DNA from: a virus
Length of the DNA: 22,414 bases
Direction: 5' to 3' (one strand)
IMG/VR virus record: IMGVR_UViG_3300028277_000535
Coordinates: 1-22,414 of that record
The translations under genes were made by a program, and so were the position numbers. The notes below the pieces were generated by a model. The model saw only the letters and a program-made list of their open reading frames with translations. It was not told the origin of the DNA and made no database searches. This document shows positions 1 through 21,996 of this stretch, piece after piece (the stretch's first letter is position 1; every line of letters starts with the position of its first letter).

Positions 1-118
1 TTTCATCCACATCAATCATCTGTATTGAGTATCCTTCATTTTTAATTTCCGTCATTACGGGTTTGAATGCTTTACACGGACCACACCATGTGGCTGTGAA
101 ATATTTTGCTGTTTTCAT
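1..118 (-). CDS. Thioredoxin-like protein (N-terminal part, cut by window edge)
   Basis: This is the N-terminal 39 residues of a thioredoxin-fold protein that runs off the window. Translation from the ATG at 118 begins MKTAKYFTATWCGPCKAFKP, which has the classic WCGPC redox motif after a short beta strand. It then continues with residues that fit helix 1 and strand 2 of thioredoxin (the Ile-Asp-Val-Asp segment). The start codon overlaps the stop of the upstream DUF1599 gene in a TAATG junction, so the two are probably translationally coupled. In T4-type phages small thioredoxins or glutaredoxins usually serve ribonucleotide reductase as electron donors; that role here is inference. The motif is unambiguous, but total length and C-terminus are not visible. 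Confidence 0.85.
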   Translation of the reverse strand, partial: MKTAKYFTATWCGPCKAFKPVMTEIKNEGYSIQMIDVDE

Positions 119-522
119 TATTTACCCCATTTTCCATTTTTTACGATTGTTGCCATAATACCATAGTTTGAAACATCAAGAAATGCATCTTCTAATGGTT
201 CATCTTTAACTGCATTTTCTCGATTGTTCATCAATAAAGTTTTAACTCTCTGCAATTTATCATTCATTCTGAACCATAAACCTGTAAGTGATAGTTTCAC
301 TTCTTCTTTAGTTTGTAATTGCGTTCCAACTGAAATGTTACCTGGACCATAATCGTGTTGTTTGTGTAAGAACAATATGTATTGTTCCCTTTGTAATCTT
401 TTAAATTCTTTGGTCATTTGTGGCCACTCTTGTTCCATTAGTGTTACAATGTCGCCGTGGTTGCCTGTTAAATAAGAATTTACTTCTTTTTTTGTACTTG
501 ATTCTTTTATTGCCTTTGGCAT
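118..522 (-). CDS. DUF1599 / nucleotide-modification-associated domain 1 (Nmad1) protein
   Basis: This 134-aa protein resembles the DUF1599 family (nucleotide modification associated domain 1). The signature pieces are in order: KQHDYGPGN near residues 54-62, an amphipathic RMNDKLQRVKTLL helix at 85-97, and VKDEPLEDAFLDVSNYGIMA at 105-124. The last matches the family pattern of a Glu-Asp pair followed by an LDxxNY helix. The family is predicted from context to act on modified nucleotides, and its fold resembles all-alpha NTP pyrophosphatases; the substrate is unknown. The ATG at 522 is preceded by a strong AAGGAG ribosome site. It lies upstream of thioredoxin and downstream of ClpP and a DNA methylase, which suits a DNA-metabolism block. 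Family assignment is good; function is inferred. Confidence 0.7.
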   Translation of the reverse strand: MPKAIKESSTKKEVNSYLTGNHGDIVTLMEQEWPQMTKEFKRLQREQYILFLHKQHDYGPGNISVGTQLQTKEEVKLSLTGLWFRMNDKLQRVKTLLMNNRENAVKDEPLEDAFLDVSNYGIMATIVKNGKWGK

Positions 523-3456: not shown

Positions 3457-3877
3457 TCACATAACCACATCTTAAAAATAACCTTTGACTAACATCATTC
3501 CACTCATCAACGTGTGACCATACTGAATCTAAACCTCTTAGTTTAGCTGCGGTATGTATATAATTAATTAAACCCTTTCCATATCCCCAATTCCTATGAT
3601 CCTTATGAACATAAAGATTCAATCCCTCTTGTGTTTCATAATTCAACCAAAACCAACCTTTAAGTTCACCATCTTGTTGTAACACGGACATTAACCAACC
3701 ATCTTCTAACCTTTGTTTTGCATCTTCCACACTCCACATTTTATTCCAATTCATTTCTTCTTGAAAAATATCTATTGCTAATTGAAGTTTATCTTCGTTT
3801 ACCTTCTTCCAATGTGTTATTTCATATGAACTCGGAGTAAATCTATAATCGTTCAAAGATTTACGATATATCATCAT
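3449..3877 (-). CDS. GNAT-family N-acetyltransferase (copy B)
   Basis: A 142-aa GNAT-fold protein. Motif A is clear as LYVHKDHRNWGYGKGLI (88-104), which carries the acetyl-CoA-binding RxxGxG loop, and the C-terminal RLFLRCGY fits motif B. It is a close paralogue of the protein at 15263-15691. Residues 31-100 of the two align without gaps, with about 40 of 70 identities by hand count, including the shared MWSxEDAKQRLxDGW block at 47-61. That block is likely the acceptor-binding part, so the two probably act on similar substrates. The ATG at 3877 overlaps the stop of the tandem dioxygenase gene as ATGA. The acceptor is unknown. Confidence 0.8.
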   Translation of the reverse strand: MMIYRKSLNDYRFTPSSYEITHWKKVNEDKLQLAIDIFQEEMNWNKMWSVEDAKQRLEDGWLMSVLQQDGELKGWFWLNYETQEGLNLYVHKDHRNWGYGKGLINYIHTAAKLRGLDSVWSHVDEWNDVSQRLFLRCGYVNE

Positions 3878-5100
3878 AAAAAATTATCTATTGATAATTC
3901 ATTTTTCTGTGATCCAGCCTCAAAACCAAGATTTGGTCGTTTATCAAATTCAAAATCTGAATATTTACCATTTTTTCTAACGTAATGAATAAATAATTGG
4001 TAACATTCGTTTCCCTCAAATGGTTCTCTCCAATGATTCATTTTAGTTCCCTCGTAAAAACAAACATCTCCCAATTCTAATATAAGATTTGCAGATTCTT
4101 CCTTCTCAGCAGAATCTTGCCAAGATGTTGACTCTGTACCATATTTTTCATAATCATATTTTTGCATATAAATTGGCCAAGGTTTATCCGTAAATATCGG
4201 AATAGTAGCACTAAACTCACAAGATGGTCTGTCTGTATGTGGTTTTAACCAATCCATACGATTGTAAAGTCTAAAAAAAGTATAACAAGGATATAATTCT
4301 TCTCCGGCCACACTTTCTGCAACTGGTTGTAGCATTTTTAAAATTGAATCTCCAATGTAAGTACCATACGCAGTAAAAGTACCTGGTACCTGACCATTAT
4401 CTAATTCCAACTCATCATTTTCTATTTTTAAATCAAAATATTGTTTTGTAAGTGTTAATAAATCCTTAGATAGAAAGTTGTTGACAACCTGATATCCATC
4501 TCTTTGTAATTTATTAACAGGTTTCAATCGTTTCTTTAATACAAAATTCACTGCCAAACTAATTCTATCGTTATTTTTTTTATTTAAATCAACAGAATGT
4601 TTCAACCATGCCGGAAAAATAACCAACTCACCATCTTCTGGTTTAATACTATAATCAGGATTTTCCATTTCATAATGATGAACGAATTCTCTATTAAATA
4701 AAACCTTATCATCACTTCTTTTAAGAATTAAATCACCACACTCTTCGTGAGTTTTTACATAATAAACTAATGAATAATCTGCTCCTGGATGAGTATGGTG
4801 AGTATTCAATACCCCCTCATGGTTAATATTGAACCACCAATTATCTACATAAACTTCTTCACCGTTAGTTATATTTTTTTGAATAATATCACAAAAGGAG
4901 TCTAATAAATCATTCATATATTTTGGAATTTTACTCTGTTTTGAGGAATGCCAACCACCAACATTAGACCTAATCACACCAGTCGGATGATCTGATTTCA
5001 ACGAATATGCATAGTTTTTTATTTTTTCATTGTCAACCTCTATTTTACCTGTCCAAATATCGGTTTCAAATATATTCTGTTTTTTCATCTTATAACTCAT
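3874..5100 (-). CDS. Tandem 2OG-Fe(II) oxygenase (two fused dioxygenase domains)
   Basis: At 408 aa this is about twice the length of one phage dioxygenase and shows two complete cupin-like units. The N-terminal unit (about 6-190) resembles the TIGR02466 family: THHTHPGADYSLVYYV (100-115), then ELVIFPAWLKHSV with His168 and RISLAVNF with Arg179. The C-terminal unit (about 200-390) has HTD at 288-290, the metal His356 in TKMNHWREP, and a YQLFIHYVRKNG end strand. Both sets of iron and 2-oxoglutarate ligands seem intact, so both domains may hydroxylate. The ATG at 5100 overlaps the upstream unknown gene by 11 nt; Met5 (5088) is an alternative start. The substrate is unknown; neighbouring sulfotransferase and GNAT genes suggest modification of a surface polymer or peptide. 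Confidence 0.8.
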   Translation of the reverse strand: MSYKMKKQNIFETDIWTGKIEVDNEKIKNYAYSLKSDHPTGVIRSNVGGWHSSKQSKIPKYMNDLLDSFCDIIQKNITNGEEVYVDNWWFNINHEGVLNTHHTHPGADYSLVYYVKTHEECGDLILKRSDDKVLFNREFVHHYEMENPDYSIKPEDGELVIFPAWLKHSVDLNKKNNDRISLAVNFVLKKRLKPVNKLQRDGYQVVNNFLSKDLLTLTKQYFDLKIENDELELDNGQVPGTFTAYGTYIGDSILKMLQPVAESVAGEELYPCYTFFRLYNRMDWLKPHTDRPSCEFSATIPIFTDKPWPIYMQKYDYEKYGTESTSWQDSAEKEESANLILELGDVCFYEGTKMNHWREPFEGNECYQLFIHYVRKNGKYSDFEFDKRPNLGFEAGSQKNELSIDNFL

Positions 5101-5512
5101 TTTCTTTATACAACTTTAACTTATCTAAATAATACTCAGAGTCTATTAAGTCATATTCATAATCTATATACTTTTTTAACTCCGTATCAAATTTATTATC
5201 TTTATCTTTAATTGTAACAAAACAATAAATCCTTCCTATCTTCCTATATACTCTCTTACCGGATAGCATTTCAAACAATTCTAACAATTCATCCTTATAT
5301 GAGCAAAAGTCTGTACCCCAGGATGTTCTATTCTGATTATCCTCACATAAATGAATTACTTTAATATCATTATACTCAATAATAATATTTTTAATAAAAA
5401 TTGGTAATTCGTATATAATAATATTTGAAGATATGTCTTTATCAATTAATTGTTTATCTGTTATAATAACCTTACAAAGTGGAAGTACAGTTGTTCTCAA
5501 TATTAACTCCAT
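5090..5512 (-). CDS. Hypothetical protein, overlapping downstream partner of 5472-5900
   Basis: A 140-aa protein I do not recognise. It has a hydrophobic strand-rich N-terminal half (Ile-rich, residues 15-55), a middle CEDNQNRTSWGTDFC segment with two Cys, and a charged, Tyr/Lys/Asp-rich C-terminal third. It has no signal peptide or membrane helix. The ATG at 5512 lies 41 nt inside the upstream gene. A TTG at 5500 in the same frame has a better-placed GGAG ribosome site six bases ahead and is a credible alternative start. Its position directly after the 892-aa Hint protein and the 142-aa unknown suggests a link to them, but nothing in the sequence gives a function. Confidence 0.55.
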   Translation of the reverse strand: MELILRTTVLPLCKVIITDKQLIDKDISSNIIIYELPIFIKNIIIEYNDIKVIHLCEDNQNRTSWGTDFCSYKDELLELFEMLSGKRVYRKIGRIYCFVTIKDKDNKFDTELKKYIDYEYDLIDSEYYLDKLKLYKENEL

Positions 5513-5900
5513 CTACAAAAAATCTCGTATAATAAACACCACCAGTACTACCATGATCCAATCCACTATAACTGCCAGTTATATTTGAATCTGGATTATT
5601 GATTACTTCCGAGTTTTCGATTTGAACCCTGTGAAAATCAGTAAACCATGATGCAGAAATATTTACATCTTCACAAACTCTGGTTAATAAAGAACCTGTT
5701 ATATGTATTTGATTGTACTCTGGTATTGAACTCCAATTCCAACTTGCACTTTCAACTAAACCCCAAACTATAATTTTATCATCATATTCATCTATTTCAC
5801 TCTGATTGTCTGTAATCCAATCATAATCTTCTGGATCTAATGAACCAGATATCACATCAACATTGGTTTGTACTGCAAATCTAATACTATAATAACTCAT
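5472..5900 (-). CDS. Hypothetical acidic protein following the 892-aa Hint protein
   Basis: A 142-aa protein I do not recognise. It is acidic in the first half (a run of Asp/Glu around residues 20-42) and rich in Ser, Asn, Trp and Tyr afterwards. It has alternating hydrophobic residues that suggest a beta-sandwich, for example IHITGSLLTRV and RVQIENSEVI. It ends in NNCTSTL. Its ATG overlaps the stop of the 892-aa protein in a TAATG junction, so it is co-translated with it. Possible roles include a chaperone or a binding partner for the LamG-like C-terminal domain encoded just upstream, or another small virion beta-protein. These are guesses from position only. Confidence 0.55.
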   Translation of the reverse strand: MSYYSIRFAVQTNVDVISGSLDPEDYDWITDNQSEIDEYDDKIIVWGLVESASWNWSSIPEYNQIHITGSLLTRVCEDVNISASWFTDFHRVQIENSEVINNPDSNITGSYSGLDHGSTGGVYYTRFFVDGVNIENNCTSTL

Positions 5901-8578
5901 TAAATTGTCCAGAAGAAATCGGGGTTTTGGGCTCCTGGAGTCATTCTGTTATAATACTTTAAAATACCTTCTGCCAATTCATTCTGATTTCCGGAGGGTT
6001 GTGCTTTACCTATAAATAAAGCTTCTGAAAAGACGCCTCCGAGGGTGTTTACGGTAGTGGTGCCAGTGGTAGATTTACCAAAAACACTCCAATAATTACT
6101 ACCTGCTCTTGGTTGGGTTATTGGGGAGGGCTCATATTGAGTCTGTCCAAACGCAGTGCCTCCTGGATTTGAAAAATTCCTGAAATTCCACCGTGTTGGG
6201 GTAGATGGAGCATTATATCTAACTCCTGTAATAATAAAAGCCGGCATAGGAATGTGCTTGGGGCCGGTTTCTTGATAAGTTGGTGATGGAGAGAAATCAA
6301 CTTGTGGTGGTGAAACAGCAGCCCAAGGTGGTTTGGAATAATACATTTTCCCTTGTGTAGGTTGAGAAAAATTATCCCTCACTGCAATATCCCAATCACT
6401 TCCAGGCTGACAGCTCCACAAACGGCCGTAGTTATTCGATTGACGAGCCGTATAGGCCCATGTCATTATAGTAGTAAATGAACTTGGACCAAAAAACCCA
6501 TAAGTACCAGTATGATATGGATTCGTGGGTTGTTTTGAAAAAACAAAACCTTTTGAACCAGGCATATTGATGCCTTTCATGGGATTTGTATTCCTGGAAA
6601 CGGGACTTCCACCTCCATCGGCATATTCTGCACTGTGCACTGCATACGATCCAGGTTGGACTATTGCATCTATATCTCCACGAGAGGTTAAATCATAAAT
6701 AGTATTAGAAGGACTTGGAAAACTTGAAGGATGACTCACATCCCAATGCCCATATATATCTAATTCACTACCAAATGATGGTGGAATAGGCCAATTTGAT
6801 GGACCATTATGAACGTGTAATCTATTCATAAAGTAATTCGGGTTGGGAGTATCCATTGGTTTCATTTCATAAATATCCCAATGTGATCTCTTACCCACTA
6901 CTTCTCTCATACTCACAACTACTGATGATACCATTTCACCATAAAGTACATCGGTTACTTTCATATCAGGTCTTTTGGGTGTAATACACTGCATACCAGG
7001 CATCAATTGCATGGCTTCCTGATGTTTAATTTCCATTGTTAAATCTGGTCTATATGAAGCCCAACCGAAAAATTTCTCTTTTGGTGCTCTTACTTTCATT
7101 CCTTCACGAGATGCTGCATATATAACTTTAAGTGGTTTTTCAAATAAAAATTCTGCTGTCCAAATATGTCCACCTGTATTAAAAGTAATCTCAACAACTC
7201 TACTTGGCATTTTTTCATCTTCAACTTTACCCATTACACCGGCTACAATTTTTTGTTCTTCATCACTCCAACTCATAGCTACCTGGCCGACCTTTGGTGA
7301 AAAAATCAAATCATCCAATCCTGAAATATTGTTACTTGATTGTGCTTTTACAAAAAATCCATTAACACTCATAACATTTTCTGTAGTTCGAATCATTTTT
7401 CCTTTAACAACACCTTTTACAAATTCAATTTGTTTAATTTCAAATTCTTCCATATTATCACGAAGAATTTTATCACCAACTTCCAAAAACCTTACAGGAA
7501 TATATTGAGAAAGGTGGCCTGCTTTTACAACATTAGTAGAATATGTGAATTTATATTCGTTGTTTATTAAAACATAATTTTTATTGATGTAAGAATCGAA
7601 TTCATCTATTTTAGTTATTTTACCACCTAATTTTAGATTATCTCTCCGTTCTAACAAATATGAATGTTTTTTAGAACCATCTGCTAATTCTACTTCATCT
7701 TTAAGCATACAGTTTGTAGGATCAATTTTATAAAATAACTTTTCATCACCCTTATCTTCGTGTTCCCAATACTTACAATATAAGTTGGGTGTTAAATCAT
7801 AAAATTGTTTTTTAAATATTATTCCATAGGATTTTACTTCTGTCTTTAATCCTGTATCTATATCTATACCGGCATCAATGAAATCTTCACAATAATCAAA
7901 ATCTTTTAAATGTGTAATAAAAGCTTTTTTAGTTTTAAATTTACGAATCTCAACACCTTGCTTTCTATCAACATTACTTTTCTTAAAAACATACCATTTA
8001 TTTTTTTCGAAACCATCGTTATTTTCAATAGTCTGATATTCTGGAGTCGGATAAACATTTAAATGTTGAATTAATTTTTTAGTTTTTAATTTATTCTCCG
8101 CAATTCGATCTATTTCACATTCTCTATTCCAACCCACTCTTAATATGAAATCTTCTTGACTATTATACTCAAACCCATCCCAAATATCATCTTGGTTAGA
8201 ACTATAATGTATATCAAATTTAATGTCTTTTTTACTTAATTCTTTACTTAATTTATCACGAAACGGATGTGAAGGAGTAATTGACTTCCATTTAGATTCA
8301 CATAAAAGAACAAGAGTTTTGTACTTCCAATGAGAACATAAATTTACAAGTGCACCAAAATCAAACCATTCAATCAAATCTTCATCTAATGCTGTATTTG
8401 TATTAATTTCTGTTACGTAACCAACATAATCTTTTGGTAATAAATCAACTGTATATAATACTGCTTCATTTTTCTTCAAACCTCTAACTTCATTGGCAAA
8501 GTAATTACCTAAAGCATTGGCACTCGAACCCAACATCATTTTATAGCTTAACTTATCAAATAAATTTGTATTTTCCAT
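5900..8578 (-). CDS. ATP-grasp-like / double Hint (intein-like) / LamG-like fusion protein
   Basis: An 892-aa multidomain protein. Residues 1-285 share an ATP-grasp-like pattern with two other proteins here: TEINTN at 56-61, FILRVGW at 144-150, WYVFKK at 195-200 followed by a QGVEI loop, and YCEDFI at 229-234. A Hint region runs from Cys290 (CMLKDEVELADGS) to His590-Asn591 (LHVHN). It contains an internal domain boundary near 410-417, where VNGFFVKA replaces a VHN end and NISGLDDLIFSP restarts the pattern, so it is probably two tandem Hint modules. Residues 592-892 resemble a LamG/concanavalin-like jellyroll: HPSSFPSPSNTIYDLTS at 616-632 and a final FSEALFIGKAQ strand. The residue after Asn591 is Gly, so C-terminal cleavage is likelier than splicing. 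The ribosome site is GGAG, 11 nt before ATG. Confidence 0.75.
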   Translation of the reverse strand: MENTNLFDKLSYKMMLGSSANALGNYFANEVRGLKKNEAVLYTVDLLPKDYVGYVTEINTNTALDEDLIEWFDFGALVNLCSHWKYKTLVLLCESKWKSITPSHPFRDKLSKELSKKDIKFDIHYSSNQDDIWDGFEYNSQEDFILRVGWNRECEIDRIAENKLKTKKLIQHLNVYPTPEYQTIENNDGFEKNKWYVFKKSNVDRKQGVEIRKFKTKKAFITHLKDFDYCEDFIDAGIDIDTGLKTEVKSYGIIFKKQFYDLTPNLYCKYWEHEDKGDEKLFYKIDPTNCMLKDEVELADGSKKHSYLLERRDNLKLGGKITKIDEFDSYINKNYVLINNEYKFTYSTNVVKAGHLSQYIPVRFLEVGDKILRDNMEEFEIKQIEFVKGVVKGKMIRTTENVMSVNGFFVKAQSSNNISGLDDLIFSPKVGQVAMSWSDEEQKIVAGVMGKVEDEKMPSRVVEITFNTGGHIWTAEFLFEKPLKVIYAASREGMKVRAPKEKFFGWASYRPDLTMEIKHQEAMQLMPGMQCITPKRPDMKVTDVLYGEMVSSVVVSMREVVGKRSHWDIYEMKPMDTPNPNYFMNRLHVHNGPSNWPIPPSFGSELDIYGHWDVSHPSSFPSPSNTIYDLTSRGDIDAIVQPGSYAVHSAEYADGGGSPVSRNTNPMKGINMPGSKGFVFSKQPTNPYHTGTYGFFGPSSFTTIMTWAYTARQSNNYGRLWSCQPGSDWDIAVRDNFSQPTQGKMYYSKPPWAAVSPPQVDFSPSPTYQETGPKHIPMPAFIITGVRYNAPSTPTRWNFRNFSNPGGTAFGQTQYEPSPITQPRAGSNYWSVFGKSTTGTTTVNTLGGVFSEALFIGKAQPSGNQNELAEGILKYYNRMTPGAQNPDFFWTI

Positions 8579-8657: not shown

Positions 8658-9275
8658 TTATTTGTATGGTTTTCCGTGTAACCACAATACAACAGAATTT
8701 CGAATTCCCTTTGTAACAGGTTCTACACTATGCATCATAAAAGATGGAAAAAATATTATTGTACCGGCCTTTAATTTAGGTGTATCTTTATCTGGTCCAG
8801 GTTGTCCCTGGAAAACCAATTCTCCACCTTCATAACCATCATTAACAAGTAATACTCCTGAGATTTTTCTATATGACATAGGTCCATCACCACCAACATC
8901 CATATGAGAGTCATATTTACCTTTTACTTTACCATCATAGGTAAGATATATTGCTGGCTCAAACATACCTGTCATTTCAAAATTCCAATTAAAATTAAAA
9001 TTTGCTTGCATACATAAAGATTCAAATTTAGAATATAACCATGCAAAATCTTCTATTTGTGGTATAGCTCTTTGTTTGGCAATTCTTTCAGAATATTCGT
9101 CTGATGAGCCAAACATACTATCTCCGTGTGTTAACGCTTCTTCTTCGGGGAAAGTTTCTACTTGTTTTCTTAATCTTCTCAACTCTACATCCCCAAATGC
9201 TCCTTCAAAAATACAAGGTGCATACATTGGAACTGGTATCGATTTTATAGTTTGTAAATGTAAATTAGTATTCAT
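8658..9275 (-). CDS. 2OG-Fe(II) oxygenase, PKHD-type hydroxylase-like
   Basis: A 205-aa dioxygenase of the PKHD/prolyl-4-hydroxylase superfamily. The iron ligands are His124 and Asp126 (YDSHMDVGG) and His182 (FMMHSVEPV). Arg192 (GIRNSVVLWLHG) sits where the 2-oxoglutarate carboxylate is bound. GGELVFQG (150-157) and AGTIIFFPSF (170-179) are typical strands. Such enzymes are common in aquatic T4-like phages, usually with unknown substrates. The ATG at 9275 has a strong AAGGAGT ribosome site. It precedes the 892-aa Hint/LamG gene, so that protein or its glycan could be the target; this is inference. Confidence 0.85.
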   Translation of the reverse strand: MNTNLHLQTIKSIPVPMYAPCIFEGAFGDVELRRLRKQVETFPEEEALTHGDSMFGSSDEYSERIAKQRAIPQIEDFAWLYSKFESLCMQANFNFNWNFEMTGMFEPAIYLTYDGKVKGKYDSHMDVGGDGPMSYRKISGVLLVNDGYEGGELVFQGQPGPDKDTPKLKAGTIIFFPSFMMHSVEPVTKGIRNSVVLWLHGKPYK

Positions 9276-12457: not shown

Positions 12458-12490
12458 TATAACTTCTCCTTATTATTATATATATATCAT
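12455..12490 (-). promoter_or_regulatory. Duplicated translation leader, copy 2
   Basis: The leader of the beta-barrel gene. It repeats the 9787-9816 element: identical for 19 bases from the start codon, then a 6-base insertion (TATTAT), then the same alternating AT run and TATCAT. The ribosome site AAGGAGAAG is optimally spaced. It also covers the last codons of the upstream glutaredoxin-sulfotransferase gene. Confidence 0.5.
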
Positions 12491-13635
12491 ATTTCATATC
12501 CAAATTCCAACATTTCTTTGTGAAACTTTTTTTCAATTCTCTTTCGTTGTTTTTTAGTGAGAATGTCTTTCCAATTTTGGTGTTTAAAATATTTTTTACT
12601 CATTGGATAACTGGCCTCTTTATTCATTTTTGCCATCTTACTAAATGATGTACTTTCAATACACTTTTTAATTTTATCTTCATCATATGTACCACATCCC
12701 ACATCATCAGTTAAAAATTTAATAATTTTAGAAAAATATTTAAAACTATCTTGTAATAAATCTTCATATCTAACAACTATTCCAGGATAACCATCCTTTT
12801 CTCCTTGTTCTTTCCAAGACATATAATTTTTATACCAATTTAATCTAAATTCTGGAAAATCATCTTCCTCGGTTATATTCATACCATCAGTTGCTATATG
12901 GTCTATAGCATTATCAATACTAACTTCCATATATCTAGCATAAGAAATAACCACATCTCTTGGATCCCTAATTATATTAATATAACCAGCAGTTTTTGCA
13001 GCATCTATAAATAAATTACCATTAAGAGTGCCATTCTTATTATGAGTTGCAATAAACTCAAAATTTAAATCAGGATCACCATGAGTCCACTCCATTTGTT
13101 GTTGGGCTCGTTGCCAATATTCTACAATTCTTTCTTTTTTTTCAGCAATCTTTGATCTATATTTTCCAAAAAAAAGTCCAGTCAAAAAATGTGGCATTTT
13201 TTGTAATAACTCATAGGAAAACTCTCCACCTTCTGTAAAATAATAAGCTCCTAAAAAACTTCTCGTCCAGTCAGTCCCACTTCGAGGATGAGTTGCAATC
13301 CATAGAATTTTATTATTATTTATCAGTTTTTTTTTTAAATCGGGCTTGATATCGACTACTGTTTCTTGTTTCCACAATCCATGTTTTTTCAATGATTCAA
13401 TAATTAAAAATGAATTTTTATTATCAAATCCAATAAAAAAATCATCTCCTATTTCTACTATTGGAACTGCAAATGAATGAGTTTTTTTAAATATCCTCCG
13501 TCTTTCTTCTCTATTCGTAACCACATCAATTTCTTCGTATTCCAAAGATTGATTAGAAAATAATTGTTTAGCCATGTTGCAGGCTGGACAATTTTTTATT
13601 TTTGATGATGTAAATAACTTTATTTTTGTAACCAT
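12487..13635 (-). CDS. Glutaredoxin-sulfotransferase fusion protein
   Basis: A 382-aa two-domain protein. Residues 1-87 form a glutaredoxin-like domain with a CPAC active site (Cys16, Cys19) and the cis-proline loop in FAVPIVEIGD (55-64). Residues 108-382 form a canonical PAPS-dependent sulfotransferase. ATHPRSGTDWTRSFL (114-128) is the phosphosulfate loop, and IIRDPRDVVISYARY (221-235) is the 3'-phosphate motif. VVRYEDLL (287-294) follows, and the C-terminal FKHQNWKDILTKKQRKRIEK is the expected conserved end. All key residues look intact. The fusion could give redox gating, or use reductant released with sulfonate metabolism; both are speculation. The ATG at 13635 has an AAGGAAA ribosome site 20 bases after the Hint gene, suggesting co-expression with it. 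Confidence 0.85.
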   Translation of the reverse strand: MVTKIKLFTSSKIKNCPACNMAKQLFSNQSLEYEEIDVVTNREERRRIFKKTHSFAVPIVEIGDDFFIGFDNKNSFLIIESLKKHGLWKQETVVDIKPDLKKKLINNNKILWIATHPRSGTDWTRSFLGAYYFTEGGEFSYELLQKMPHFLTGLFFGKYRSKIAEKKERIVEYWQRAQQQMEWTHGDPDLNFEFIATHNKNGTLNGNLFIDAAKTAGYINIIRDPRDVVISYARYMEVSIDNAIDHIATDGMNITEEDDFPEFRLNWYKNYMSWKEQGEKDGYPGIVVRYEDLLQDSFKYFSKIIKFLTDDVGCGTYDEDKIKKCIESTSFSKMAKMNKEASYPMSKKYFKHQNWKDILTKKQRKRIEKKFHKEMLEFGYEI

Positions 13636-13655: not shown

Positions 13656-15266
13656 TTACCCACATAAACCCTTTGCTTGCCACCATGAAGTGCTGGTGCA
13701 CCCGTTTACTGTCCCCTTAGAGGTGGTATATGTCGGCGTATGGCCCCCATTCCCGCCGTGAAGTGAATAATAATCACAGCGCGGACTTGTATTGGGATAT
13801 GAGACTTCAGCATAAGTGGGATAACTTACCCATGTGATCCAGAGGCTACCGTTACACGCCGCATTATGTAGTATCACTCCATTCGCATAATAATAATCCT
13901 GGGGTTCAACATTAATTTCACTAATAGGAAACACCTGTGTTGAAGATGAAACAACCGAAATACTTGTTATTTCTAATTCTTGACCATCTTCGTCTGCCAA
14001 ATAATCTCCAATAGATAATTCTATTGATGGTTTAAATTTCCAAGTATTTTCGCTTCCACTTGTAAAAAGATTTGTAAATGTACCAAATTTCTTATCACCA
14101 TTTATTACGGTATATGAATCTGTGAATAAATCGGGCCATACATCAATAACCTCAACATTTGATTGGGATGGTATTGATAAACTTGAAGTTTCCCAAAGTT
14201 TCCAGAAATAATGACCACACTTGTTAGCGTACCCATCCGATTCATCGGGTAACCCACTAATATTACGAATTTTTAAGAACGACCCCGTAACTACATTTTC
14301 TATATTTGTATAACTGTTATCTGACATCAATACCTGACTTCCCGATATGGCACCCTTTCGTGTAATAGTAGTTGTCGTATAAGAACCCGAATCACCTGAT
14401 AAAATATAATGAGGTAAATGAGTTTGAAAAACATTCACATCCGCTGTAATTGGATTCCGTGGTTGTAAAAAAATATTTTCTTGTGGAGTCAACATCATAA
14501 TACCCCTCACCTCAGAATAATAAGCCCCATTATAATTCAAATCGGGTAGGATAAACTCCTCACAATAAGATTGAGAAAGTAAATAATTTTTATTATCATC
14601 CGTTATATCATAAAACTGAAAAGAATTCATAAGTAAAGTTTGATAATCTACTGTGGGGTCTTTAATAAGTACATCTGGAACACCAACACCATTAGAAAAT
14701 CCATCAGGTAAATCTGCCATTTTTCTTGGCATCAAAGATTCAATTCCAGATGAAGATGCGAAATTCCTAAATTCTCTTTTATCCGATGCTAAATAATCAA
14801 TAGGACTTGCAGAATCAAATCCAAATCGTAACACAAAAGTAGTATTAGGAACATCAAAATCTGGTACCGGAGTAGGATAGGAGGGCTGAACATAAATACT
14901 TGATGTAAACCCATCTATGTCCAAACTGGCTGTTATATCACCTACCAGCTCCAAAGGTGGCATAACAGTTCCTTCTTCATTTCGTGTAACCAAAACTATA
15001 GTGTCATAATTATTTGCTTTCCACCAAGTAACTGCACTATCTAAAAAATTAGTTTCAGGTGGAGTTTGAATATTCGTGTTAAGTTCTAATAACTTTAATG
15101 ATCCACTTGAAGGGACCCAATCATATCCGGCAATTACTCCATGATTATTACCCTTTCCTGTCCAATATTCAGGATTACTTCCTGTCAAAAAGGGGGCAGC
15201 AGCTTGCAAAGACTGAGTTGCAATAGAACTACTATAATTATTAAAATTAAAATAATTTAATTTCAT
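13656..15266 (-). CDS. ATP-grasp-like / Hint (intein-like) protein with Cys-containing tail
   Basis: A 536-aa protein. Residues 1-300 share the ATP-grasp-like pattern of the 892- and 284-aa proteins: LLELNTN at 59-65, NNYDTIVLV at 85-93, FVLRFGF at 144-150, GVPDVLIKD at 195-203 and YCEEFI at 234-239. A Hint domain follows (about 305-468). It starts AISGSQVLMSDNS with Ala306 where Cys is normal and ends in YYANGVILHN with the catalytic pair His467-Asn468. The next residue is Ala469. The usual block-B His is replaced by Asn399. This predicts C-terminal cleavage by Asn cyclisation but no splicing, freeing a 68-residue peptide with four Cys (471, 497, 523, 535) that is rich in Tyr, Trp, Ser and Gly. 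The start has a strong GGAGG site and an ATGA overlap with the GNAT gene. Confidence 0.75.
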   Translation of the reverse strand: MKLNYFNFNNYSSSIATQSLQAAAPFLTGSNPEYWTGKGNNHGVIAGYDWVPSSGSLKLLELNTNIQTPPETNFLDSAVTWWKANNYDTIVLVTRNEEGTVMPPLELVGDITASLDIDGFTSSIYVQPSYPTPVPDFDVPNTTFVLRFGFDSASPIDYLASDKREFRNFASSSGIESLMPRKMADLPDGFSNGVGVPDVLIKDPTVDYQTLLMNSFQFYDITDDNKNYLLSQSYCEEFILPDLNYNGAYYSEVRGIMMLTPQENIFLQPRNPITADVNVFQTHLPHYILSGDSGSYTTTTITRKGAISGSQVLMSDNSYTNIENVVTGSFLKIRNISGLPDESDGYANKCGHYFWKLWETSSLSIPSQSNVEVIDVWPDLFTDSYTVINGDKKFGTFTNLFTSGSENTWKFKPSIELSIGDYLADEDGQELEITSISVVSSSTQVFPISEINVEPQDYYYANGVILHNAACNGSLWITWVSYPTYAEVSYPNTSPRCDYYSLHGGNGGHTPTYTTSKGTVNGCTSTSWWQAKGLCG

Positions 15267-17199: not shown

Positions 17200-17888
17200 T
17201 TTATTTTTTCCTTATCATAATAAAAATTCTTATTGGCTGGTGGAATTGTATTAGAATCACCATTGTCTATTTGATATGCCAATCGTTGATTTGTAATATA
17301 AGCATTTAATAATCCCTTTCTGACTACTCGATGTGTCATATCAGAATCAACTGCTATTTTAGGGTATTTTAGATGTTCTAAAAATACTTTACAGGCCTTT
17401 TTATTAACCATAAAACATTGATTTCCAGGTTTGTATTCATATATAGAATAAAAATCATTTATTTTTTCTTTAATGACCAAATCTTCTGTGAGATAACCAA
17501 AATGAATCATATCCCAATCCTTTGGAATGTGTTTTATACATTCATTAAATTTTTCTTCAAAGTCATCTATAAAAACACAATCATCTTCAATTATAAGTAT
17601 ATTACCATAATCTTTATTTATATTTTTTTTATATATTTCAAGAAAGGTTTTATGTAAACCAACTAACCCAGGTGTCAATGATTTACCCAATTTAAATCCT
17701 GATCTTTTAGTCTCATAAAGTTCACCTAATAACTTTTCCTTTTTATAATTTATTTTTTTACCATCTATTGCAGGAAATCTTTCTGTTTTAGATAATAACG
17801 GAATTTTACTTAATTGATGTTCTATTTTTTTTCGTCTATCTTGACGATAATCTAAATTTATATAATAAGATTTATGAAATATATTCAT
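17196..17888 (-). CDS. Glycosyltransferase family 25 protein (copy B)
   Basis: A GT25-type glycosyltransferase (LPS biosynthesis family). Counting from the TTG at 17906, the hallmarks are YYINLDYRQDRR (14-25), FPAIDG (44-49), LTPGLVGLHKTFLEIY (77-92) and ILIIEDDCVF (103-112) with the acidic EDD metal motif. I prefer the ATG at 17888 (codon 7 of the longer frame) because the earlier codon is TTG inside the upstream gene and GAGG lies 12 bases ahead of the ATG. The product would be 230 aa. The family transfers galactose, glucose or heptose to lipo-oligosaccharide, or hydroxylysine sugars in collagen-like proteins. It sits beside a heptose-kinase-like gene and the ATP-grasp-like protein. Confidence 0.8.
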   Translation of the reverse strand: MNIFHKSYYINLDYRQDRRKKIEHQLSKIPLLSKTERFPAIDGKKINYKKEKLLGELYETKRSGFKLGKSLTPGLVGLHKTFLEIYKKNINKDYGNILIIEDDCVFIDDFEEKFNECIKHIPKDWDMIHFGYLTEDLVIKEKINDFYSIYEYKPGNQCFMVNKKACKVFLEHLKYPKIAVDSDMTHRVVRKGLLNAYITNQRLAYQIDNGDSNTIPPANKNFYYDKEKIK

Positions 17889-18726
17889 ACTCTTTTGAAT
17901 CCTCAAAATAACTTTTATACCTTGATTGTAACGATAAATCTAATCTATTTTCTATTTCAGTTTTAGTACTTAAATATTTATATTCTGGTGTAATAGTTGG
18001 TTGTAAATTCTCATAATCAGTTATATCAATAGATATATTTTTTCCACATAAATGATAAGTATTCAAATAATAATCTGATACTATATAATCTTCACAATAC
18101 TCGTCCACAAAAGCATCTTGATAATCTTCCTTGTCAAAAAGATAAATACCCTTTCCCGAATCAAGTTCGGTATCTTTCATAACAAAATCTGGTACACCAT
18201 TACCCTTTTCAGTTACATCCTCTAATCTTAATATTTGTTTTGGAAAATTAAGTTTATCTCCCAAATATTGTCTTACCCATCTTTTATTTGTAGATAAATG
18301 TTCAATAAATGCAAACTCACGATTAAATGTTTGTTGAAAATTGAAAATTGATGGATCATCAGAAAAATCCATATAAACAAAATCTCCGACATCTTCGTTC
18401 ACCGTTTCTATTTTTATCTCCTTTTCCATTAAATTATATAAACTTCTATCACACCCTACGTTCCAAAACACAAGTTTACTATAATTGTTATTTACTAAAA
18501 AATCTTGTAAAATGCTCAAATCAAGTTGAGTTTTAGAAGTTACGGTTGCGGCCGTATCTATTTCTAAAAAATACAATTTGCCATCCTTTGGTATTAAAGA
18601 AGTCTTAACTAAAATAAAATGATTAGACAACTCCATATATTCTTTCATATCTGATGAAATCGATTCGTGAAAAATATCAGATTGTTTTTTAATTATCGGA
18701 ATATAAATATTTAAATCAAAGTTCAT
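17872..18726 (-). CDS. Stand-alone ATP-grasp-like protein, relative of the two Hint proteins
   Basis: A protein of 284 aa from the ATG at 18726. An in-frame GTG at 18744 would add 6 residues, but only the ATG has a usable GGAG site. Residue numbers here are from the GTG. It matches the N-terminal part of the 536- and 892-aa Hint proteins: LIPKDGKLYFLEIDTA (50-65), NNNYSKLVFW (85-94), HLSTNKRWVRQYL (149-161), GVPDFVMKDTELDSGKGIYL (183-202) and YCEDYI (216-221). The Lys190 plus a glycine loop, followed by an acidic YCED hinge, fits an ATP-grasp nucleotide site, though I claim this from pattern only. It overlaps the two flanking GT25 genes, suggesting a joint role. Possible activity: ligation of an amino acid or peptide to a glycan or protein. 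Confidence 0.7.
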   Translation of the reverse strand: MNFDLNIYIPIIKKQSDIFHESISSDMKEYMELSNHFILVKTSLIPKDGKLYFLEIDTAATVTSKTQLDLSILQDFLVNNNYSKLVFWNVGCDRSLYNLMEKEIKIETVNEDVGDFVYMDFSDDPSIFNFQQTFNREFAFIEHLSTNKRWVRQYLGDKLNFPKQILRLEDVTEKGNGVPDFVMKDTELDSGKGIYLFDKEDYQDAFVDEYCEDYIVSDYYLNTYHLCGKNISIDITDYENLQPTITPEYKYLSTKTEIENRLDLSLQSRYKSYFEDSKEYEYIS

Positions 18727-19468
18727 CCCAAGCCCCATCTCCACATTGAAATGATTTATCCTTATACCAAGATTGTAATTCTGTTCTCTTTTGTATGAGA
18801 GAAAATGTTATCATTGATCTTGAACAAAAAGGATAAACATCTGCTATATCAATATTTTTTCTATTAATGTGTAAGTCAGCAGGAACGATGCCCTGCTCAC
18901 TTGATTTTTGTATTAGTTTAGTTGCTGCAGTTGGTGTTATAGTGTAACAATGTGCTCCAAGTAAACAATATTCCCTACAATAACACTCTTCACCCTTCTC
19001 AACTGTACAATCACACCACCTCTTATACAAACCTTTTCTATTCCTTTTTTTATGTATCAACTCGAAATCAAAATCATCTTGTTTATAATCCTTTTCCCAA
19101 GAAGGTTTCCCATAATTTATCACTCCATCAAAATCATAGTCTTTAAATTCATTGGTAAAAATTGCATCATGTTCTAAAACCATAATTTTTTGGTCTAATT
19201 TCACACAATGATTCCAAAGGTGAAAGTGACTAAAAAAACATCCGAGTATAGATTCTTTGTAACCTATATTCGTCCAAAGACGGTTTTCATCGATAAAATT
19301 AAACTTATATTTTTTATTCAATTTTAGAGAATCGTCTCTATGTATACCTTCCCACAATTCAACATCTATTTTTCCAATATTTTTTGCTGAATCAATTGTC
19401 TTTAATGCAGATTCATAACTAAGTTTATTTGATGAAATATGAATTACATATTTTTTAAAATCCGACAT
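18716..19468 (-). CDS. Glycosyltransferase family 25-like protein (copy A)
   Basis: A 250-aa GT25-like glycosyltransferase, more divergent than the copy at 17196. ESILGCFFSHFHLWNHC (72-88) corresponds to the GxxxSH...W helix of the family and KIMVLEHDAIF (94-104) to the acidic metal strand, with EHD in place of EDD. LLGAHCYTITPTAATKLI (169-186) matches the tyrosine-containing strand and helix. A cluster of six cysteines (152, 154, 162, 164, 168, 174) is unusual and could bind zinc or be disulfide-bonded. It overlaps the methyltransferase upstream by 14 nt and the ATP-grasp-like gene downstream. The donor and acceptor are unknown; LPS or phage glycoprotein decoration is a reasonable inference. 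Confidence 0.75.
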   Translation of the reverse strand: MSDFKKYVIHISSNKLSYESALKTIDSAKNIGKIDVELWEGIHRDDSLKLNKKYKFNFIDENRLWTNIGYKESILGCFFSHFHLWNHCVKLDQKIMVLEHDAIFTNEFKDYDFDGVINYGKPSWEKDYKQDDFDFELIHKKRNRKGLYKRWCDCTVEKGEECYCREYCLLGAHCYTITPTAATKLIQKSSEQGIVPADLHINRKNIDIADVYPFCSRSMITFSLIQKRTELQSWYKDKSFQCGDGAWDEL

Positions 19469-20790: not shown

Positions 20791-21388
20791 GATAAAATCC
20801 TTGTTGAAATCCTTTACCAATTGATTTATTAGTATAAACACAAATATATGATCTTCTCGAATAATCAGAATTGTTATTTTCTGAACTATGTAAAGTGTTG
20901 CCTTCTATTAAAAGAATATCACCTATCTTTGGATATAAAGTTATCCACCTTTCATCAAAGACTTTTATTGCACCATTCTCATCTGTATAATCATCAAGTA
21001 TCAACATACAATTAATCGTAACCAATTCTTTATCATTAGGAAATGGACCATACTGATTATCATAATGTGGTTCAAACTTCATATCTTCATGTGGAAGTTT
21101 TACAACTATCTGGTCATTGAATAAATAAGGTTCAGGAATGTAATCTGTAATAACATCATACATAAATTTAGAAGTATAGACATTAAACAACTTATAATTC
21201 TCATCATCGGTACAAATTGATGCCATAGATGCCATATCTAATCCTTTCCAATAAATACCAGAACCTACTTCCTTGTCCTTCCCAATCTGTGGGACAAGTC
21301 TTTCCTTTACTATCATGGTGTAGGATTGTAAATAGTCTATAACATCACTTGGTATTTTGTTTTCCAGTATATCATAACCATTATTCAT
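20768..21388 (-). CDS. Phytanoyl-CoA dioxygenase (PhyH)-like 2OG-Fe(II) oxygenase
   Basis: A 206-aa dioxygenase of the PhyH type. The iron ligands are His108 and Asp110 (FEPHYDNQYGP) and His167 (GNTLHSSE). Arg178 or Arg179 (SRRSYICVY) binds 2-oxoglutarate. LILDDYTDENGAIKVF (129-144) and KIGDILLIEGN (154-164) are the family strands. PhyH-like proteins hydroxylate lipids, amino acids or small-molecule intermediates, and several occur in aquatic phages. The ATG at 21388 overlaps the ClpP stop in a TAATG junction and has a GAGGT site. It opens the accessory island and is of a different subfamily from the two other oxygenase genes in the window. Confidence 0.8.
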   Translation of the reverse strand: MNNGYDILENKIPSDVIDYLQSYTMIVKERLVPQIGKDKEVGSGIYWKGLDMASMASICTDDENYKLFNVYTSKFMYDVITDYIPEPYLFNDQIVVKLPHEDMKFEPHYDNQYGPFPNDKELVTINCMLILDDYTDENGAIKVFDERWITLYPKIGDILLIEGNTLHSSENNNSDYSRRSYICVYTNKSIGKGFQQGFYHEQFIIR

Positions 21389-21996
21389 TAAATTACCTCA
21401 TCAATTAATCCATACTCTAAACATTGTTTAGCATCCCACAGTAAATCGTGTTTTAATATTTCATCAAGTTTCTTCATTGGAACTTTAGTATATTTCTTAT
21501 ACACATCTTTAATGGTTTTCATCATTAAATCAAGATTCTGTTTCTCATCCTCAAAGTTAGCGTATGTTCCCCAAAAGTTACTACTTAACTGATGAATCAA
21601 CATATAAGAATTTCTACTCATAAATCTATAATTACCAACTACTGACAAAAATGTAGCCGCACTTGCTGCAAATCCATCTACATAAGTATGAATTGGAACT
21701 TTACATCTCAACATAGTATCCATAGATGAAATACCGGCAGTGATTGAACCACCACCTGAATTTATCAATATTTTAAGTACAGGTGGATCTATATCTAAAG
21801 TATTTGCTAATGTCAAACTTTTAGATTCTATCTCACCTATCTTTTTATTTAATTCTACTGCACTTTCTCTGTTTACATTAGAATAATAATAAATCTTATT
21901 TTCGTGAACTGATATGTGCTTTTCTGGTTTACCACCATTTGGTTGTGCATCTTTTGTAACAGGTGGTTTCTTTTCACCCCAATATTTTTCGTTCAT
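21388..21996 (-). CDS. clpP: ClpP-like ATP-dependent protease subunit (copy A)
   Basis: A 202-aa ClpP-fold protease. NSGGGSITAGISSMDTM (79-95) is the glycine-rich substrate loop. The triad is Ser112 (DGFAASAATFLS), His135 (MLIHQLSSNFWGTY) and Asp184 (ILKHDLLWDAKQ), and the ending LEYGLIDEVI is standard. The first 30 residues are an extra polar, Lys/Pro-rich segment. Compared with the other ClpP of this window, length and triad spacing are the same, but outside the motifs they share little, so they are old paralogues or separate acquisitions. They could form a mixed two-ring protease, or one could serve as prohead protease. It shares an ATGA with the upstream small gene. Confidence 0.9.
   Translation of the reverse strand: MNEKYWGEKKPPVTKDAQPNGGKPEKHISVHENKIYYYSNVNRESAVELNKKIGEIESKSLTLANTLDIDPPVLKILINSGGGSITAGISSMDTMLRCKVPIHTYVDGFAASAATFLSVVGNYRFMSRNSYMLIHQLSSNFWGTYANFEDEKQNLDLMMKTIKDVYKKYTKVPMKKLDEILKHDLLWDAKQCLEYGLIDEVI

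Follow-up and report, generated by a model that had tools for sequence, protein, structure and literature searches.

Results

A conserved gene for a modular phage protein

Within the window, by which we mean the whole stretch of 22,414 nucleotides analyzed here, an 892-codon open reading frame (P0001) occupies positions 5900-8578 of the minus strand; the plus strand of the same span is full of stop codons. Residues are numbered as in its translation, in which the landmarks of the first-pass annotation lie where that annotation had placed them (Cys290, VNGFFVKA at 405-412, NISGLDDLIFSP from 417 and LHVHN at 587-591). Relatives of this protein and of a 536-aa protein from the same window (P0002) were gathered by scanning viral contigs. 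The 892-aa family comprises 22 ORFs, the window's own and 21 others, which form 15 groups at 97% identity. Some are near-duplicates, 5 are truncated at their 3' end and 2 at their 5' end, with one of these truncated at both, and the ORFs found latest (e.g. L081, L097, L099 and L101) were left out of the family counts. Every complete member is 884-911 aa long, and the 892-aa ORF is a conserved gene. Mean identity to the window's protein among 11 distant relatives was highest for residues 456-593 (60%), followed by residues 1-284 (39%), 285-412 (29%) and 641-892 (20%). These data, together with the domain assignments discussed below, support a modular protein made up of an ATP-grasp-like N-terminal domain, a first Hint domain (Hint1), a second Hint-like module (module 2) and a variable jellyroll.

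Searches beyond the family returned little. No second match to the 892-aa protein was present in the virus record at E 0.001, and we found no Pfam or PHROG family covering it. A tblastn search with P0001 against 50,697 phage records gave no relative, while queries with P0002 or the L024 protein gave nothing useful. Sequence searches of the PDB, for which the queries were P0001, profiles of the whole family and of module 2, and an L043 fragment, were equally unproductive. Finally, we scanned 84,980 cellular genomes using the module 2 alignment; the 105 pattern matches obtained were all unrelated.

The gene has constant neighbors. Directly upstream, and always linked to it, is a gene for a 2OG-Fe(II) oxygenase (8658..9275, minus strand; PF13640): a gene of 205-217 aa lies immediately upstream in 15 of 15 loci, and PF13640 exceeded the Pfam cut-off in the window's upstream neighbor as well as in all 8 other upstream neighbors scanned. 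Locus comparison likewise places a gene for a 142-aa protein directly downstream (5472..5900, minus strand), with a neighbor of 142-170 aa at this position in each of the 14 loci not cut by a contig end. It is possible that the linked oxygenase modifies the 892-aa protein, which we read below as an adhesin. We recognized no tail genes among the close neighbors.

Several other genes in the window deserve mention. A second 2OG-Fe(II) oxygenase gene lies downstream at 3874-5100, and two genes encode ClpP-like proteases (571-1179, PHROGs head maturation protease, E 3e-36; 21388-21996, Pfam Clp protease, E 3e-28). A single ORF at 12487-13635 fuses a glutaredoxin to a sulfotransferase. On a related contig (L003:636-2920), an intein divides a T4 gp44-like clamp-loader gene in two, and a homing-endonuclease-like ORF (1318-2211) sits between the two parts, a layout that we take to be the fractured-gene split-intein arrangement; an uninterrupted copy of the clamp-loader gene is found on a related 120-kb contig (L061:16210-17142).

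The N-terminal domain weakly resembles ATP-grasp proteins

Residues 1-284 (7727..8578, minus strand) bear a weak resemblance to ATP-grasp domains. NCBIfam Ddl_archaea matched residues 158-240 at E 8e-4, and did so in 5 of 14 members with a score far under the family cut-off; Pfam ATP-grasp_3 appeared in 2 of the 14 and reached E 0.22 at best. Fold lists for the full-length model were occupied by jellyroll matches, none of them informative on this domain. Ten residues are invariant in the family alignment (E57, N59, N61, K163, K199, D204, K206, G208, E231 and E247), and profile comparison indicates that the N-terminal domains of the 892-aa and 536-aa proteins are homologous (E 1e-10). The domain recurs in a stand-alone 290-aa protein (window positions 17872-18744), in the 536-aa protein (13656-15266) and in further paralogs, as well as in L014 and L056. 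Its EINTN motif lies on the N-terminal side, which would suggest a circular permutation.

Hint1 is predicted to be a complete fold lacking its catalytic ends

Hint1 (residues 289-412; 7343..7714, minus strand) was analyzed using an AlphaFold2 model of residues 284-604 built from 17 sequences. Ten-residue pLDDT means over residues 284-413 ranged from 62 to 93, and were mostly at least 80. This part of the model (model residues 1-131) matched the bacterial intein-like (BIL) domain 6y75_B with a Z score of 15.6 (2.1 Å over 127 residues). Further matches obtained with VIA-align were Hedgehog 1at0 (Z 15.2), BIL 2lwy (Z 15.1) and gp41-1 6riz (Z 15.0), and all 50 matches listed were Hint-fold proteins, comprising inteins, BILs and Hedgehog. 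Mini-inteins superposed end to end on residues 289-412 at 2.0-2.2 Å, the last strand included. In most rows of the alignment, intein residue 1 fell on model residue 6, corresponding to Asn289, and the last intein residue on model residue 129, corresponding to Ala412. The aligned model ranges were 6..129 on 1..440 of 2in8, 4..129 on -1..125 of 6riz and 1..131 on -4..145 of 6y75_B, while a single row, 4kl5_A, was shifted by one at its start.

We then compared these positions across the family alignment. Residue 289 is Asn in all 21 relatives covering the site, and residue 290 is Leu in 11 of the 21, Cys in 3, Phe in 3, Ile in 2 and Val in 2. Near the other end (n=22), residue 411 is Gln in 13, Ser in 5, Lys in 3 and Asn in 1, and residue 412, which takes the place of the terminal Asn, is Ala in 17, Ser in 4 and Thr in 1. 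Since Asn289 stands at position 1 and Ala412 at the terminal-Asn place, Hint1 is, on the predicted model, a complete Hint fold that is catalytically dead. Cys290 (7709..7711, minus strand), which the first-pass annotation took to be the nucleophile, therefore sits at Hint position 2 and is not conserved. That annotation had also noted that VNGFFVKA stands where a VHN end was expected, and the structural alignment bears this out by placing Ala412 at the terminal-Asn position. The resemblance it noted between this half and the Hint of the 536-aa protein was likewise recovered by profile comparison (E 4e-5, probability 70).

Module 2 retains a Hint-type end

Module 2 (residues 417-591; 6806..7330, minus strand) contributes most of residues 456-593, the best conserved part of the protein. 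It opens with a block-A-like start (xISG/xVxG), in which residue 417, a position set by the motif and not by structure, is Phe in 18, Asn in 3 and Tyr in 1 (n=22); none of these is a nucleophile. It closes with SHWDIY and NYFMN..xVHNGP, the listed columns of which are invariant in 20 of 20 sequences, including HWD, block F Asp568, N581..N585, H590 and N591. A Hint-like pattern without Cys, running from 417 to LHVHN, had been proposed for this region, and it holds across the family. The residue following the terminal Asn is Gly592 in all 20. Ends of this type serve in C-terminal cleavage through Asn cyclization. Y582, F583, M584, N585 and P593, which need not be catalytic, are as invariant as the HN pair, and the VHN motif could thus be structural.

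A loose Hint-end pattern was run against six-frame translations of the fetched loci, which amount to 1.5 million residues from 101 distinct and overlapping sources. Outside the 892-aa and 536-aa families, it matched only one chance frame of 52 residues. Judged from the sequence, the Hint-type end motif is not a chance match. In the AlphaFold2 model, module 2 has strands in Hint-like order at a pLDDT of ~30-65, with the last 40 residues poorly modelled. No similarity between Hint1 and module 2 emerged from profile comparison, whether or not predicted secondary structure was included; sequence searches matched module 2 to no family of Hints or inteins, and PF14890 was absent from the window. We infer from its start and end motifs that module 2 may be Hint-folded. 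Thus, of the tandem Hints proposed earlier, the first stands as a confidently predicted complete fold and is followed by a module with a Hint-type end, but the second of the two folds sought in a structure prediction of residues 285-600 was modelled at low pLDDT.

With respect to known classes, neither module carries Cys, Ser or Thr at position 1, and Gly592 at +1 is not a nucleophile, which sets both apart from active class 1 inteins. Class 3 inteins are characterized by a block F Cys (the WCT motif), according to the pertinent passages of PMC7664689 and PMC7765530; block F of module 2 reads HWDIY, with Asp568 in 20 of 20 sequences and no Cys, and we rejected this class. Module 2 does share with A-type BILs a His-Asn C-terminal end (20 of 20) and a hypervariable region alongside. 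We considered Cys531, conserved in 20 of 20, as a hidden nucleophile but put it aside because it stands 60 residues ahead of the module end; AXH domains presumably carry a Cys at a like place.

AXH (PF08517) was the one Pfam family that module 2 matched repeatedly. In the window the match comprises two weak, colinear pieces spanning residues 440-534 (6977..7261, minus strand), with AXH 33-79 on residues 440-483 (E 7) and AXH 85-114 on residues 505-534 (E 0.008). The match appeared in 11 of 14 family members searched as whole proteins, at E 0.007 or worse, and in 5 of 5 module 2 fragments, at E 2.8e-4 to 0.03, with a best score of 21.8 bits against a gathering cut-off of 33. A control search also gave weak AXH matches in 3 of the 14 prokaryote genomes searched, all of them under the cut-off, and such scores therefore do arise by chance. 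In Foldseek, AXH chains of ataxin-1 and HBP1 ranked directly behind the Hints (E 0.064-0.25); these rows do not give the model residues covered, and the placement of the chains on module 2 therefore follows from the sequence matches. In the open-licence PMC literature, our searches gave no paper that connects AXH to Hint domains or inteins, nor any that treats Hint modules of phage adhesins.

A variable jellyroll follows the HN

As the first-pass annotation had proposed, a jellyroll follows the Hint region. Structure searches with the predicted model assign residues ~600-892 (5903..6781, minus strand) to a ConA/LamG-type jellyroll, with Z scores of 13.6-15.4 over 190-234 residues among the 50 matches listed. 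The full-length model has a mean pLDDT of 51.6, and the C-terminal domain reaches only ~25-65. The first Foldseek row for this model was a cyanophage tailspike, and the BFVD matches were phage virion lectin-like proteins. The jellyroll fold is shared with the cyanopodophage Pan3 tailspike 9vyh (Z 14.7) and with the S-PM2 virion structural protein Q5GQW3, a BFVD match. We propose that the domain may bind a surface glycan or receptor. A virion location for the 892-aa protein is suggested by the lectin fold only.

Divergence rises across the HN. Between P0001 and L002, amino-acid identity fell from 0.97 (residues 416-591) to 0.52 (641-892), and differences at four-fold sites rose over the same step from 12/60 to 25/58 (P 0.0096). 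Two further pairs displayed a smaller drop in identity (0.96 to 0.83 and 0.87 to 0.69). The synonymous jump was absent from L040/L044 and L037/L043 of the 892-aa family (P 0.82 and 0.87); the pairs L003/L005, L024/L025 and L044/L046 have diverged too little to be informative, and P0002/L005 offers too few sites.

The 536-aa relative (13656..15266, minus strand) has the same N-terminal domain, a single Hint ending in YYYANGVILHN and a hypervariable 67-aa tail. By sequence, the C-terminal half of its Hint matched the BILs 6tmm/6y75 in a search with the family profile (E 0.0013), and the family also matched a PHROG of virion structural proteins, phrog_38766 (E 5e-4 with L003). Its block A reads GAISG/GAMTG, which by our reading lacks a position-1 nucleophile. 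The break in divergence sits at the HN in this family as well. Identity between P0002 and L003 fell from 0.86 to 0.42 across it, and four-fold differences in three pairs rose from 8/60, 8/60 and 6/66 before the HN to 7/11, 12/17 and 7/10 after it (0.09-0.13 to 0.64-0.71; P 0.001, 1e-5 and 7e-5, with the pairs drawn from three sequences and not independent). The tail (window positions 13656-13859, minus strand), where synonymous divergence jumps, also has a Cys/Trp pattern, which to us recalls small carbohydrate-binding modules.

Discussion

The findings discussed above support two Hint-like modules joined to an adhesin. We hypothesize, at a probability of about 0.5, that module 2 cleaves C-terminally only, at Asn591-Gly592, and so releases the jellyroll. 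After folding, His590 together with block F Asp568 would activate Asn591, which would cyclize and cut the bond to Gly592 (His590-Asn591-Gly592; 6803..6811, minus strand; conserved in 20 of 20). The product would be a 301-residue jellyroll of ~33 kDa, freed or held non-covalently. Since Hint1, module 2 and the Hint of the 536-aa protein all lack a position-1 nucleophile, and +1 is Gly instead of Cys, Ser or Thr, neither N-terminal cleavage nor splicing would be expected. Hint1 would act as a structural spacer. The HN is kept in module 2 and in the Hint of the 536-aa protein, both of which directly precede a variable C-terminal domain, and is lost in the internal Hint1, a distribution that fits release-only processing. 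We put our estimate at even odds because the non-catalytic residues beside the HN are equally invariant.

That same invariance favors the chief rival, in which neither module cleaves and both are degenerate Hint/AXH-type β domains that lie between adhesin and N-terminal domain and serve solely as rigid spacers and protein-protein interfaces, with the HN a fossil or a structural Asn-Gly-Pro turn. Hint1 clearly fits this description, and AXH is a non-catalytic interaction domain in animals. Nevertheless, two differently built modules keep the HN right before a C-terminal domain while the internal one does not, and we regard a purely scaffolding role as a serious but somewhat less than probable explanation.

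A related question is whether module 2 links the Hint and AXH folds. Its Hint-type start and HN end would then enclose an AXH-like core, the AXH of ataxin-1 and HBP1 would descend from the Hint superfamily with phages keeping the intermediate, and the phage form would still free the adhesin by Asn cyclization alone. We consider this tentative and rather unlikely. Module 2 is like the AXH domains of ataxin-1 and HBP1 in the colinear match of residues 440-534, but differs in that the score falls under the Pfam cut-off; to our knowledge, AXH is known from animals and lacks a Hint end. It is quite improbable that module 2 is instead an AXH-like domain without Hint ancestry, whose Hint-like tail is a coincidence. 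AXH was matched in every module 2 fragment and its chains come next after the Hints in Foldseek, but the end motif is specific, the module start reads like block A, the score falls short of the cut-off, and the PDB sequence searches returned no AXH chain.

The first-pass annotation had viewed the two Hints as one processing unit, with Cys290 of Hint1 and Asn591 of module 2 forming a single site. Both residues are present in P0001 and L002, and L020 has the Cys and is cut off before the Asn; however, Cys290 occupies position 2 rather than 1, and 18 of the 21 relatives covering the site have L, I, V or F in its place, leaving this composite active site unsupported and highly improbable. The case that the annotation had named as fatal to its proposal is one Hint fold carrying an ordinary insertion, with block A at 290 and blocks F/G at 560-591. 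In its favor, the entire region contains just one HN end of the Hint type, but it is ruled out, unless the predicted model is wrong, because Hint1 is complete by itself from end to end.

Among known systems, A-type BIL Hint domains (Amitai 2003; Dassa 2004; via PMC7765530 and PMC7664689) are among the closest to the arrangement that we favor, in which module 2 cleaves only at Asn591-Gly592. As reviewed in PMC7765530, they have an HN end, Asn-driven C-terminal cleavage without ligation and hypervariable surroundings, and engineered C-cleaving inteins likewise perform release-only processing. The phage protein is similar in its HN end, its non-nucleophilic +1 residue and its adjacent hypervariable region, and among the matches listed the fold of Hint1 comes closest to that of BIL 6y75, with 2lwy not far behind. 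It differs in having two modules, neither with a position-1 nucleophile and the first without both catalytic ends, and in that its activity is putative. The C-terminal Hint of Hedgehog (1at0) resembles Hint1 in fold and similarly joins a processing domain to a surface-acting one. Hedgehog undergoes N-terminal cleavage by a position-1 Cys, whereas the phage protein lacks a position-1 nucleophile and its attached domain is C-terminal.

In the dead Hint1, a processing fold appears to have turned scaffold. Of these results, the AXH lead would most repay a specialist's attention; were the link true, it would provide an origin for the AXH domain of ataxin-1. Should module 2 prove to cleave, these phages would use a nucleophile-free, release-only Hint to separate a rapidly changing binding tip from its conserved base, and such a Hint would represent both an unusual route of adhesin maturation and a natural C-cleaving tag.
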